Part shown: positions 13,130 to 18,103 of the stretch, in pieces
Layout of the letters: each line of letters begins with the position of its first letter
Numbering within the stretch: position 1 is the stretch's first letter
Assembly: GCA_016874755.1 (NCBI GenBank)
Contig: VGTH01000018.1
Coordinates: 1 to 64,000 of the forward strand
Length of the DNA stretch: 64,000 nt
Direction of reading: 5' to 3'
Origin: Deltaproteobacteria bacterium
GTDB lineage: Bacteria; Desulfobacterota; Binatia; UBA9968
Made by a program: the position numbers and the translations under genes
The notes under the pieces: model-generated
The model's database searches: none
What the model was told of the DNA's origin: nothing
Seen by the model: only the letters and a program-made list of their open reading frames with translations

Positions 13130-14007
13130 GGTCTCGATCAGCCGGTGTGGAAGCAATTCAGCGACTGGATATGGGGCATGACGCGGTTGGATTTCGGCGC
13201 GTCGATGTGGACTGGCCAGCCGGTGGCGCATGAGATCGCGATTCGCCTCGAGCTGAGCATCGAGTTAGCGCTGCTGGCGACATTTGTCGCCGTGCTGCTG
13301 TTGTTGCCGCTCGGCGTTCTCGCAGCGGTGAAGCAGGACACTTGGATTGATTATGCATTCGAGCGCGACGTGCTCTCAAGAGTTATCTACGGCGCGCGCA
13401 CCGCGCTTTGGGTTGGCTTTGCTTCATCTTTGTTGGGTGCCTCCCTGGGCGCGCTGATCGGCGTGGCGAGCGCTTACTTTGGCGGCAAGGTCGATCTCTT
13501 GCTGCAGCGCTTCATGGACCTGCTATTGTCGTTTCCCCTGATCATTCTCGCGCTGGTGGTGGTTTCTCTGCTTGGCTCCGGCATGACCGACGTTATTTTT
13601 GCCATCACCGTGCCGATGATTCCTCGCTGCGCGCTGGTGCCGCGTAGCAGCGCGCTGGCGCTGCGTGAGATGCCCTTCGTCGAAGCCGCGCTCGCTCTGG
13701 GGTTTGGGCCGATGCATATTATTCTGCGCCATATGCTGCCCAACGTGATGGCGCCCGATCTGATCATGCTCACGGCCTTTCTCGGCCAAGCGATTTTGCT
13801 GGAGGCGTCGTTATCGTTCCTTGGCCTCGGCGTTGCCGAGCCCCAGGCCGCCTGGGATTAATGCTGCGCGGCGCCGCCGTCGACTTCGCCGAACGCGCGC
13901 CGTGGATGGCGATCTATGCGGGCATTGCCATCAGTTTGTCAGTTTTTGCGTTCAACCTATTTGGCGACTCCTTGCGCGATGCGCTCGATCCGAAACTGCG
14001 GATCTAA
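13130..14007 (+). pseudogene. dppB-dppC fusion remnant (peptide ABC permease)
   Basis: The N-terminal part (from about 13130; QPVWKQFSDWIWGMTRLDFG to AVKQDTWIDYA) is the middle of a DppB/OppB-type permease whose first membrane span is absent, with an in-frame TGA at 13121-13123. At about 13350-13361 the sequence jumps to a DppC/OppC-type permease (RDVLSRVIYGARTALWVGF), including the EAA-loop region ALALGFGPMHIILRHMLPN. A one-base loss in GGG at 13854-13856 stops the frame at 13861; the other frame continues GLMLRGAAVDFAERAPW to DALDPKLRI and a stop at 14007. So dppB's end, dppC's start and the rest of the transporter are gone. It is very unlikely to work. Confidence 0.85.
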
Positions 14008-14594: not shown

Positions 14595-15620
14595 TTACTT
14601 TAGGATTTCTTTCGCCCGTGGGATCAATTTCGGGTCGAGATTGAAAACGTCCCTGACGTTGCGTTCCAATTCCGCTCCATCGAGCGGGTTTATATCCAAG
14701 CGCGCCTTGGTGGCGTCGGCGATGAATTCCGGATCTCTCATCGTGTCCATGAACGCTTTGCGCAGTATCTGCACGCGGTCCTTCGGCGTGTTCGGCGGCA
14801 GCACGAAGGGCCGCGCGGTCGGGCCAACACTGTGGACAATCGCTTTGACGAGCTTTTGACCTTCCTCGGTTTTGGCGTAGTTGATCGCGAGTGGCAGCTT
14901 TGGCTGGTCAGGATGAGCCTTTGGAATGTTTTGCAGAATCATCACGAGCTCGCCCGAGGCGAGCTCTTTGCTCCAGGTGGCTTTGAGCGATTCCCAAGAG
15001 TTACAAATGCCGTTCACTTCGCCGCTGCCGAAGGCGAGCCGGACGTCGGCGGTGCCTTTGTAGCCAGTTACTAATTGAAAGGGTAAACCAATCGCCGGCG
15101 CCAAGACTTTCGGAATGTCATCGGTGGCCGAGCCGGCACCGACGCCGCCGAATTTGATTATTGTCTTGCTGGATAACCACTGTTCGATGCTGGTGATGCC
15201 GGTGCTTTTGTGCACGCCGATCATGTAGTTGTCCTGCGCCGGCACGCCAATGTACTCGAACTTTTTCGATTCGAACTCGACGCCGGGTTTGCCGAGGAAC
15301 TGCTGCAGGAACAGGCCGCCGATGAAATGGCCGATGGTGAGGCCGTCGGGTTTGGCGACCTTGTACATGTGATTGGCGGAGATCAAGAATCCCGCGCCGG
15401 GCATGTTGTCGACGATCAAGTTCGGGTTGCCGGCGATGTGTTTGCCCATGTGACGTGCCATGGTGCGCGCGTAGGTGTCGTAGCCGCCGCCGGCGGTGGC
15501 GCCGACGATGATGCGCACGGTCTTGCCGCGGTAGAAGTTATCCTGGGCCTGCGCCTGCAGGGACGCGAAGGGCACAATCAGTAAAGCGGCGAAAACAAGT
15601 TTCAACGAACCTCTGGCCAT
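14595..15620 (-). CDS. Tripartite tricarboxylate transporter-type substrate-binding protein (TctC/Bug family)
   Basis: A 341-residue periplasmic receptor with a signal peptide cleaved near QAQA-QD (about residue 26). FYRGKTVRIIVGATAGGGYD is the hallmark ligand-contact loop of TctC/BugT proteins, and PGAGFLISANHMYKVAKPDG follows as in the family. Such proteins bind carboxylates and hand them to a TctAB membrane pair, but no tctA or tctB lies nearby, so this is an orphan receptor. GAGGAGG precedes the ATG. A paralogue lies immediately upstream. Ligand unknown. Confidence 0.88.
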   Translation of the reverse strand: MARGSLKLVFAALLIVPFASLQAQAQDNFYRGKTVRIIVGATAGGGYDTYARTMARHMGKHIAGNPNLIVDNMPGAGFLISANHMYKVAKPDGLTIGHFIGGLFLQQFLGKPGVEFESKKFEYIGVPAQDNYMIGVHKSTGITSIEQWLSSKTIIKFGGVGAGSATDDIPKVLAPAIGLPFQLVTGYKGTADVRLAFGSGEVNGICNSWESLKATWSKELASGELVMILQNIPKAHPDQPKLPLAINYAKTEEGQKLVKAIVHSVGPTARPFVLPPNTPKDRVQILRKAFMDTMRDPEFIADATKARLDINPLDGAELERNVRDVFNLDPKLIPRAKEILK

Positions 15621-15662: not shown

Positions 15663-16685
15663 TTACTTCAGTATCTCTTTGAGCTGGCTGACGATCGCCG
15701 GCTCGATCTTGAAAAGCTGGTGAACGATCTTTTCGATCTCCTCGCCGGTGAGGGGATCGGTGTCGAGGCGCGAGCGTTTGGCGTCGGCGATGAACTCGGG
15801 GTCTTTGAGGGTTTCAGTGAAAGCCTTGCGCAATAGCAGCACGCGATCTTTCGGCGTGCCTGGTGCGACCGCGTAGGGGCGGGTGATCATCGCTGGGTCG
15901 TGGCCGCCGAACTTGAGAATCTGCTTGGCGTTGTTGTCCGGCGCAAAGTCTGTCGCGTTGGGTACCTTCGGCAACTCCGGATGGGCTTTCGGGTTAACCT
16001 GCAGGACGACGAATACGTTGCCGGAGTCCAGCCCTTGGCGCCAAATCGATTTGATTGACTCCCACTGCCAACAGCCGCCGGCGACTTCGCCTGCCTCAGC
16101 TGCCAAGCGGACTTCGGCGGTGCCTTTATAACCAGCGACCAGTTGGATCGGCAGCTTCAAAGCCGCCAGCAATAGCTTGGCGGTATTATAAGTGGTATCG
16201 CCGGGCGCAACGCCGCCGACCTTCACCGGCGTTTTGGAATTGCGCAGCGCGTCGAACGTGGTGATGCCGCTGGCTTTGGTGAAGGCGCAGGCGACGTTGT
16301 CTTGAGTCGGAATGCCGATGTATCCGAATTTGCGAGCGTCGAATTCGATGCCAGGCTTGCCGACGACCTGGTTGATGACCTGGTTGCCGTGGAAATTGAG
16401 AATCGTCAGGCCGTCTGGTCTCGCGACCTTGTAGACGTGATTGGCCGCGAGCAGGCTCGCCGCGCCGGTCATGTTCTCGACGACGATCGCCGGATTACCG
16501 GGAATATGGCGGCCCAGATGGCGCGAGATCAAACGCGAGTAGGTGTCGAAGCCGCCGCCGGCGGAGAAGCCGACGATCAGTTTAATGGTTTTGCCCTCGT
16601 AAAAGGGCGCCGCCGCTACGGCCGACAGCGCTGTCGTGCCGAGGAACGCTAGCACAAGAAAGAACTTGCTAAAGAGTTTGATCAT
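15663..16685 (-). CDS. TctC/Bug family substrate-binding protein (second copy)
   Basis: A 340-residue paralogue of the neighbouring receptor, again with FYEGKTIKLIVGFSAGGGFD after a signal peptide ending near SAVAAA. I start it at the ATG giving MIKLFSK because AAGGAG lies at correct distance upstream (an ATG six codons earlier would overrun that site). Only about 40 bases separate it from the next receptor gene, so the two are probably one operon. The divergence between the copies suggests different ligands. Confidence 0.87.
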   Translation of the reverse strand: MIKLFSKFFLVLAFLGTTALSAVAAAPFYEGKTIKLIVGFSAGGGFDTYSRLISRHLGRHIPGNPAIVVENMTGAASLLAANHVYKVARPDGLTILNFHGNQVINQVVGKPGIEFDARKFGYIGIPTQDNVACAFTKASGITTFDALRNSKTPVKVGGVAPGDTTYNTAKLLLAALKLPIQLVAGYKGTAEVRLAAEAGEVAGGCWQWESIKSIWRQGLDSGNVFVVLQVNPKAHPELPKVPNATDFAPDNNAKQILKFGGHDPAMITRPYAVAPGTPKDRVLLLRKAFTETLKDPEFIADAKRSRLDTDPLTGEEIEKIVHQLFKIEPAIVSQLKEILK

Positions 16686-16766
16686 GCAGGCTCCTTCGCA
16701 CACCGAGGAGATTTAGAGGAAATTAACTAGCAGCTTTTAGAGTGGTGTCAACGGGCGCGGAGAACG

Positions 16767-16832
16767 GGCGCAATAAATTGCGCCTCTACCCGCGGAGCAA
16801 TGTGTTTTGCAGGGGCGTGATTTATCACGCCC
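16767..16832. repeat. Pair of short palindromes (REP-like)
   Basis: Two small palindromes lie 29 bases apart: ggcgcaat-aa-attgcgcc (16767-16784) and gggcgtga-ttta-tcacgccc (16813-16832). They sit in the gap below the selenoprotein candidate's stop and could act as its transcript end, although no T run follows on either strand. Words of this type are scattered in many environmental genomes; that is recollection, not a search result. Confidence 0.5.
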
Positions 16833-16842
16833 GTTCTGCACA

Positions 16843-17634
16843 TCAACGGTCTTGGCGCATCTCGGCTATTAGCTCTCGTTCCCATGCGCGGCTGCCGTCG
16901 GGCAGCCACTGGAAGCCGGGGTCGCGAATTTCGCCAGCGCGGGTGAATTTAGGCAACTCGGCAAGCGCGCGTTCGAGCACCGCTTCGTTGCGGCCACGAT
17001 CATGCGGCGGGCCGAAGGTGCGGCCGACCGGATGGTCGACGAAAACGACACGCGGCGCGGTTACTTTGCTGATGATGTCGTGCGCGGTGCCGATTAGCAG
17101 CGTGGGAATGCCTTGGCCTTCGATCACGTGGGCGATGAGACCGACGGTCTCATGGCAGAACGGTCAATAGGGGACGAGCAGGGCAAGGTCGACTCGTGCC
17201 TCCTTCATATCTCTGGCAATGGCTGTCGCCAGCTCGTTCTCTATCTTAGCATGATCGCGCAAGCCGCCCATGCACGAGAAATGAAACGGCGCCAAGCTGC
17301 CGACCAATCCGCGCTTGACGAGATTGGCCAGCGCGGTGCGCGGAAAGACGATCTCTGGGTCCTGCTTGGGTACGCGGCCGATGCCCGAGTGGTGATCGAT
17401 GATGATTTCTCCCGCTGTTGGATCGGATGGAACTTTGCGATAGCCGAAATCTTCGCGAGGAATGAACGGCTCTTGCTGCGTCAGGCGCAGCGCAGCGCTG
17501 GTCAGCAGCGCCACGCGCGACTGATTCAACGGCTTGGTTGCCGGGCACCACGCCGGCTTGGATGGTTTAACCAAAACCCGCGGTGGTTTGGGCGCCGAGT
17601 TTTGCGCCATGATCGGAAGATATTCGAAGGGCAT
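16843..17634 (-). CDS. GrdB-family reductase, candidate selenoprotein (in-frame UGA)
   Basis: A 263-codon protein if the UGA at 17164-17166 (codon 157) is read as selenocysteine. The frame is open on both sides of that one codon, giving LALLVPY-U-PFCHETVGLI, a UxxC redox motif followed by the HxTVGL segment of the glycine/sarcosine/betaine reductase selenoprotein B family. The N-terminal half (PAWCPATKPLNQSRVALLTS, then SLAPFHFSCMGG) also fits. The ATG at 17634 has AAAGGAGA upstream; a longer frame to 17781 would overlap the next gene. A hairpin lies just after the UGA. The small single-gene form is not a full clostridial reductase, so the substrate is unknown. A sequencing error for TGC remains possible. 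Confidence 0.75.
17135..17166 (-). promoter_or_regulatory. Candidate bacterial SECIS element
   Basis: On the mRNA, ten bases after the UGA (17164-17166), a perfect 8-bp stem AUGAGACC/GGUCUCAU (17146-17153 and 17135-17142) closes a three-base loop GUC. Bacterial SECIS hairpins lie immediately 3' of the UGA and need G and U in the loop for SelB contact, as here. The bulged U of the E. coli fdhF element is not seen. Because this stretch is also coding, the perfect stem is notable. Confidence 0.6.
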
Positions 17635-17749
17635 AGCATCTCCTTTGCGTCGAAGTAACGTAGCACAAGCTTGCCCGGGGCTGCTAATGTGCCGATGTTG
17701 AAGCGATGCGCCAGCGGAAAATAGTTGTTCATGATGAGGCTTCAGGCGA

Positions 17750-18103
17750 TCAAGCAAAGCTAAGAAATTCTGGGGGGACATAAAGGCCGCGCTGCCGAAG
17801 CGGTTCTGGCGACTCTGTTTCGCAAAGTATGCGCAGACGTCTCATTCGAGAGGCGGCTTGAACAAGATACATCGGCTCTGAAATTGCCTCGATCTCCGCG
17901 GTCCAGCTAGGTGCGGGCTGTTTGGTTCTCAGAGCGAGCAATTCCACCAGTGCTGCGGCGATCGCGAGCAGCTGCAAATGGGCGGCTTCTGGCCGAGGAA
18001 TGAGATTTAGGCAGGGATGTTCACGGAGAAAATCTTGTGCCAAACCGCGCAGCTCAAGATTGTCAAGCCGAGGGTGAATTGTGAATCCCCTTATGATAAG
18101 CAA
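17750..18103 (-). CDS. Conserved-looking protein of unknown function
   Basis: A 117-residue protein. The C-terminal third (EPMYLVQAASRMRRLRILCETESPEPLRQRGLYVPPEFLSFA) looks like a compact conserved segment, rich in Arg and with a PPEFL ending; I have a recollection of similar unnamed proteins but cannot name a function. No signal peptide or membrane span is evident. It lies upstream of the selenoprotein gene on the same strand and is divergent from yggS with an 8-base gap, so its start and that of yggS are back to back. Confidence 0.5.
   Translation of the reverse strand: MLIIRGFTIHPRLDNLELRGLAQDFLREHPCLNLIPRPEAAHLQLLAIAAALVELLALRTKQPAPSWTAEIEAISEPMYLVQAASRMRRLRILCETESPEPLRQRGLYVPPEFLSFA

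Follow-up and report, generated by a model that had tools for sequence, protein, structure and literature searches.

D-proline reductase and glycine reductase require PrdA or GrdE, and the pyruvoyl subunit of these systems activates amines. Selenoproteins assigned to PrdB have been counted in marine data, with 42 in the Sargasso Sea in 2005 (PMC1088965) and 235, carrying a UxxC motif, in GOS in 2008 (PMC2398784), and going by the available text of both papers, few selenoprotein families are more abundant in marine data. The selenoproteins of Anaeromyxobacter dehalogenans and Geobacter uraniumreducens were likewise reported in 2006 to include a 'proline reductase' (PMC1794560). In the available text of these three papers we found no statement on a PrdA gene adjoining those PrdB selenoproteins. 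The fluoroacetate reductase FarE/FarB of Synergistota also comprises a GrdB-type selenocysteine enzyme, for which C-F bond cleavage has been proposed; going by the part of its description available to us (PMC10838667), FarEB is a two-protein system, whereas the protein considered here appears to stand alone.

Here we describe a locus from an uncultivated Deltaproteobacteria bacterium (Desulfobacterota; Binatia), within a window of 64,000 nucleotides (positions 1 to 64,000 of contig VGTH01000018.1, assembly GCA_016874755.1). The kind of protein is already known, as PrdB or 'proline reductase' selenoproteins, and the window gene is a new member of it. The preliminary description of this DNA called this single-gene form, outside a clostridial Stickland setting, poorly explained, which was too strong, PrdB selenoproteins having already been reported elsewhere. 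A description of this member, of its hairpin or of the TctC pair beside it was not found in the available text of PMC1088965, PMC2398784, PMC1794560, PMC9312934, PMC13188914 and PMC10838667, and no report of Binatota selenoproteins or of a Binatota glycine reductase was found in the open-licence literature, with few subscription papers covered.

The PrdB-like gene (16843..17634, minus strand) encodes a predicted protein of 263 aa. Its frame runs on the minus strand through 263 codons (17634..16846) to a terminal TGA at 16845..16843, and its lone internal stop is a TGA at 17166..17164, codon 157, which lies in the context VPY-U-PFCHETVGL in the frame translation and, read as selenocysteine, gives a UPFC (UxxC) pair. 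A putative ribosome-binding site, AAAGGAG (17640..17646, minus strand), is situated five bases 5' of the ATG at 17634, and the start region is conserved in orthologues. A plain ORF list breaks the gene into one frame of 205 aa (17164..17781) and another of 94 aa (16843..17127, GTG). The preliminary description had joined two minus-strand frames across one UGA, placed a UxxC pair there and expected a standard caller to split the gene, all of which agrees with our reading of the frame. Judged by its sequence, this is almost certainly a true selenoprotein gene that ordinary ORF lists cut in two.

The source is a draft genome of 101 contigs and some relatives of the gene are broken, G010 having a TAA together with a frame change, so a sequencing error, a frameshift or a pseudogene at the UGA has to be considered. 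Among 25 genomes of the same bacterial family we found seven full-length orthologues with 66-81% identity over their whole length; with the window gene and a 31%-identical paralogue from G014 they form an aligned set of nine sequences from eight genomes. TGA stands at the aligned Sec codon in 9/9 of these, the window included, which upholds the position (codon 157) proposed beforehand. Values of pN/pS were 0.14-0.36 before the UGA and 0.19-0.44 after it (8 orthologues, 28 pairs), in a codon test that left out two fragmentary orthologues, the broken G010 gene and that of G008, which stops at a contig end. Similar purifying selection on both sides of the UGA indicates that both halves are kept as one protein. 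An identical TGA in eight genomes, selection on either side of it and, as described below, a covarying hairpin and the presence of selenocysteine machinery make an error or decay at this codon exceedingly improbable.

Across the phylum, 395 genomes were searched and the PrdB-like family was detected in 89 (E <= 1e-12). Among the matches listed, all contain TGA except that of G382 and a fragment in G291 that begins 3' of the Sec codon; two other phylum matches carry a TAA besides the TGA. We retrieved 40 phylum loci, one per genome and mostly from the top of the match list, and found TGA at the aligned codon in 39, the exception being G382 with GGA. This last locus (L166) encodes Gly at the Sec codon and retains a hairpin with 8/8 stem positions paired; it represents either a recent loss of selenocysteine or a sequence error. 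The second Cys of the UxxC pair is replaced by Asp (UPLDH) in 5/39 retrieved Sec loci (L151, L156, L157, L158, L159), so the resolving Cys is dispensable, while Sec almost never is. Positions invariant in 24 aligned sequences include H81, D92, P155, G204 and G208, and these residues beyond the UxxC pair suggest a substrate pocket.

Downstream of the UGA (17164..17166, minus strand) lies a bacterial SECIS-like hairpin, ATGAGACC-GUC-GGTCTCAT (17135..17153, minus strand), with an 8-bp stem and a three-base loop that occupies nucleotides 22-24 counting from the U of UGA, a distance that is fixed across sequences. Aligning 48 sequences (47 distinct; nine family members and 39 sequences of the phylum search), we observed stem pairing in 360/376 cells (95.7%), with two-sided changes in 6/8 pairs, and pairing fell to 13-47% when the partner column was slid by 1-3 positions. 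Stem covariation was 0.382 vs 0.156 in shuffled alignments and 0/500 shuffles attained any of five measures, figures to be read with the stem model having been derived from the tested sequences and the shuffle controls assuming independence among sequences that are in fact related. At silent sites, the third base of a Gly codon pairs in 48/48 sequences, where pooled Gly codon usage of these genes predicts 17.6, and that of a Leu CTN codon in 46/46, where 18.6 are expected; both expectations are optimistic owing to relatedness, although the direction of the effect is plain. In two alphaproteobacterial Cys homologues only 4 and 5 of the 8 stem positions pair. Deviating sequences are few, for example L175 and L176, which have a different minimum-energy fold. 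Taken alone, the window segment folds modestly better than its shuffles (z -1.76), and since single-sequence folding is this weak the case for the hairpin rests on covariation. A conserved hairpin with a fixed loop position provides a clean marker for finding more members of the family.

The window's own genome (G000, 99.55% complete) encodes the components needed for selenocysteine insertion: a tRNA-Sec (75.9 bits, the same gene being called by ARAGORN), selB (411 bits), selA (600 bits) and selD (382 bits, with one in-frame TGA at a GUAAK motif), the genes selD, selB and selA lying side by side on contig C16. The preliminary description had proposed looking for selA, selB, selD and tRNA-Sec in the genome and had regarded a lack of selA/selB/selC as decisive against its reading; with all of them present, that objection falls away. 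Across relatives, SelA scored above cut-off in 22/25 family genomes. One 100% complete genome (G021) is without matches to SelA, the PrdB-like protein, GRDA, GRDB and PF09338. G022 and G010 have GRDB with no SelA above cut-off, for which gaps in the metagenome-assembled genomes may be responsible, and four genomes (G004, G012, G016, G018) have SelA and none of PrdB-like, GRDA, GRDB or PF09338. With exceptions in both directions, the co-occurrence of SelA with Grd/Prd genes is just mildly supportive. The proposal of an unannotated selenoprotein is nevertheless well founded on the conserved TGA, the two-sided selection, the covarying hairpin and the machinery, and we regard selenocysteine insertion at UGA 157 as nearly certain.

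The assignment to the GrdB family made in the preliminary description did not hold. The best NCBIfam match is PrdB (TIGR04483), at 122.7 bits (1.6e-35, residues 26-237) against a cut-off of 300, while GrdB (TIGR01917) matches at 31.3 bits (cut-off 602.2) and the Pfam GRDB family (PF07355) at 16.2 bits (cut-off 22). With scores under the curated cut-offs of both PrdB and GrdB, the protein is PrdB-like and a member of neither curated family. The similarity to GrdB covers residues 90-224 and the C-terminal part of the model (1e-7), which is 431 positions long compared with the 263 aa of the window protein. The prdB frame of Ligilactobacillus also has a TGA with a UxxC motif (UGTC), matched to the Sec site by context, but there PrdA, PrdD and a racemase are neighbours, none of which accompanies the window gene. 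The marine 'PrdB' selenoproteins have the UxxC motif in common with the window protein, a likeness drawn from the available text of their published descriptions.

Structural comparison yielded less. The AlphaFold2 model (pLDDT 70.9, pTM 0.77) drew on five close sequences, a shallow alignment, and Foldseek found no match to it in the PDB at E <= 0.001. The best VIA-align hit, a B12-binding photocobilin protein, reached Z 8.0 over 114 residues; many other chains follow at Z 6-7.5, so no fold is claimed. A profile search of solved structures using 24 sequences returned nothing credible.

The match to PrdB raises the question of whether this is a true D-proline reductase subunit, whose PrdA/GrdE-like pyruvoyl partner would be encoded at another site of the genome; besides the 1.6e-35 score, the seven PF09338 (GrdE-like) genes of the window's genome, located on contigs other than the window's, would allow this. 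The score nevertheless lies far from the 300-bit cut-off, and a profile search for GrdE/PrdA-like proteins within 7.5 kb of the gene found one in 0/44 loci (40 phylum loci, G017, G011 and two plasmids; some contigs end within 7.5 kb). In control family loci the same profile gave 20 matches, of which 11 were profile rows and 9 were not. The genome of G017, which is 98% complete, has an orthologue at 66% identity together with selA, and yielded 0 matches to PF09338 and 0 to GRDA, although PF09338 does detect a known PrdA (92.6 bits, cut-off 22.2). The stand-alone form can thus exist without either, unless the missing 2% hides them.

The GrdE-like proteins themselves also bear on this reading. 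We aligned 18 of them (7/7 from the window's genome, three from G014 and eight from G015) with clostridial GrdG and Ligilactobacillus PrdA. Residue 242 of GrdG is taken to be the pyruvoyl-forming cysteine; both references have Cys at this position, compared with 0/18 of the GrdE-like proteins, and none of the seven from the window's genome has it. Six GrdE-like proteins scanned against the models (five from the window's genome and one from G014) had GrdG as best match and FarE as second, 6/6 falling below each cut-off. FarE is without processing cysteines, and the available text of PMC10838667 states the same for the betaine subunit GrdI, so loss of the pyruvoyl cysteine has precedent. With no PF09338-type neighbour at any locus, a nearly complete genome that has the gene without a detectable partner, and no presumed pyruvoyl source in the candidate partners, we find the D-proline subunit improbable. 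That this genome has the stand-alone form without a PrdA/GrdE match also speaks against naming that form 'proline reductase'.

Grd-type genes are otherwise plentiful in the window's genome. Contig C39 carries both GrdA (NCBIfam 189.6 bits against a cut-off of 130), whose frame holds one TGA, and GrdC-beta (570 bits against 450). Six long GrdB-like genes also occur, each with a TGA that falls within codons 346-353 of the region matched. Several of these long GrdB genes lie near GrdE-like genes, a neighbour that the window gene does not have. The expansion is distributed over C1, C2, C3, C9, C14, C25 and C58 (loci L032-L035 and L187-L189). By eye, the long GrdB genes on C14 and C1 (L033, L032) show a hairpin 3' of the UGA, TCGCAGC-GGC-GCTGCGA, with its loop also at nucleotides 22-24 and a design similar to that of the PrdB-like gene. 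The 8.3-Mb genome G015 (9% contamination) gave 27 matches to PF09338 and 20 to GRDB, with contig-end fragments among them; its Grd-type loci include L075-L078, L083 and L191. Many Grd-type loci adjoin substrate-binding proteins, two by Pfam and others by clustering. GrdC and GrdA occur together at L190:3076-8932, L186:8964-11077 and L193, where no GrdD-like gene beside them was noticed. Directly after GrdC/GrdA, G014 has genes for hydantoinase A and B (by domains), and a similar frame was seen by eye in G013.

Two same-strand genes follow the selenoprotein gene. The first (15663..16685, minus strand; the ORF is listed to 16703 and the ATG at 16685 was taken as start) encodes a TctC/Bug-type receptor that scores 19.2 bits with Pfam TctC, below the cut-off of 27, and matches solved chains of TctC (3.5e-8) and a terephthalate-binding protein (3.9e-8). 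The second (14595..15620, minus strand), 49% identical to the first, scores 39.1 bits with the same Pfam model, above its cut-off, and matches BugD at 2.8e-7. The preliminary description had noted two TctC receptors here, and both genes do resemble the TctC/Bug proteins, BugD and the terephthalate-binding protein among them. Bug receptors generally bind carboxylates. No TctA or TctB was noticed by eye among the adjacent window genes. Two TctC genes lie 3' of the gene in 8/9 orthologous loci with a flank available (G000, G009, G010, G011, G013, G014, G023 and G024, and not G017), while outside the bacterial family TctC was found near the gene in 0/40 phylum loci and 0/2 plasmid loci. The pairing is therefore real yet lineage-specific, seen just in one bacterial family. 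Upstream flanks differ between genera and some downstream genes are shared, which makes the TctC linkage suggestive, not strong.

We favour, with moderate confidence, a stand-alone PrdB-like selenoenzyme with a Sec-decoded UGA whose selenol would attack its substrate directly without a pyruvoyl subunit, and which is followed by TctC receptors; the window protein itself is most likely a pyruvoyl-free selenol reductase. Decoding of UGA 157 as selenocysteine, via the downstream hairpin and the genome's SelA, SelB, SelD and tRNA-Sec, has strong backing from the sequence. The selenol would then attack an activated carbon, one bearing a leaving group, of a small substrate, bypassing the PrdA/GrdE pyruvoyl subunit, and the Se-bound product would be freed by reduction, either through a selenenyl-sulphide with Cys160, later reset by a thioredoxin-type donor, or by an external thiol. 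The likely ligand of both TctC receptors in this bacterial family would be the substrate itself or a carboxylate related to it, bound for delivery or sensing. An alpha-substituted carboxylate is our guess for the substrate, since it agrees best with the receptors and with the lack of a pyruvoyl subunit. Several findings bear on this proposal. GrdA and GrdE-like genes occur elsewhere in the window's genome, and GrdA and the seven GrdE-like proteins could act in trans, but G017, which bears an orthologue and has no match to either, argues against a need for them. The replacement of Cys160 in some Sec loci indicates that this residue is not essential to the family, which counts against the favoured explanation, as do the restriction of the TctC link to one lineage, the GGA locus that keeps its hairpin and the modest folding of the window segment alone; the structural model gives no help.

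The UxxC pair could also belong to a general selenol-disulphide oxidoreductase, thioredoxin- or peroxidase-like, to which the TctC receptors would be unrelated passengers. The gene stands alone with varied neighbours outside the bacterial family, and many UxxC selenoproteins are classed as thiol redox proteins in the available text of PMC1088965. Such an enzyme fits poorly with Asp in place of the second Cys in five of the 39 Sec loci, with the invariant H81, D92, P155, G204 and G208 and the substrate pocket they suggest, and with the two TctC genes that follow in eight of nine family loci; we judge it possible, though on balance unlikely.

More broadly, and as a doubtful extension of the pyruvoyl-free reading, stand-alone 'PrdB' selenoproteins, perhaps including those of the ocean, might constitute an enzyme class of their own, selenol reductases that cleave C-X bonds of non-amine carboxylates without a pyruvoyl group. 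In Binatia-type bacteria they might belong to a wider set of Grd-type selenoenzymes that is without the pyruvoyl cysteine and sits among substrate-binding proteins, with receptors reading the environment for reducible substrates. The literature name for the relatives is proline reductase, and an ordinary ORF list halves the enzyme; if its true substrate can be identified, it may become possible to test what an abundant marine-metagenome selenoprotein family does.

Clustering of the neighbours at 44 loci, based on mechanical ORF lists, revealed no partner outside the family common to most of them. The PrdB-like frame itself makes up one of the two largest clusters, and a frame opposite the gene makes up the other. 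A putative luciferase-like monooxygenase, named from its sequence, is present in six loci, in four of which it lies directly upstream on the same strand. A Photobacterium plasmid hit is a record without annotation. Within the window, 157 bases separate the selenoprotein gene from the first TctC gene, compared with 57-69 in six relatives, and this gap contains (16766-16833) two near-palindromic repeats of the type GGGCG-GATAAATC-CGCCC; the repeat has 3 matches in the window vs 0.04 expected, two of them being one palindrome read on both strands. Further along, at 13145-13861, a short ABC permease ORF (BPD_transp_1) appears by eye to join a DppB-type start to a DppC-type part with an early end, and is possibly a decayed permease fusion.
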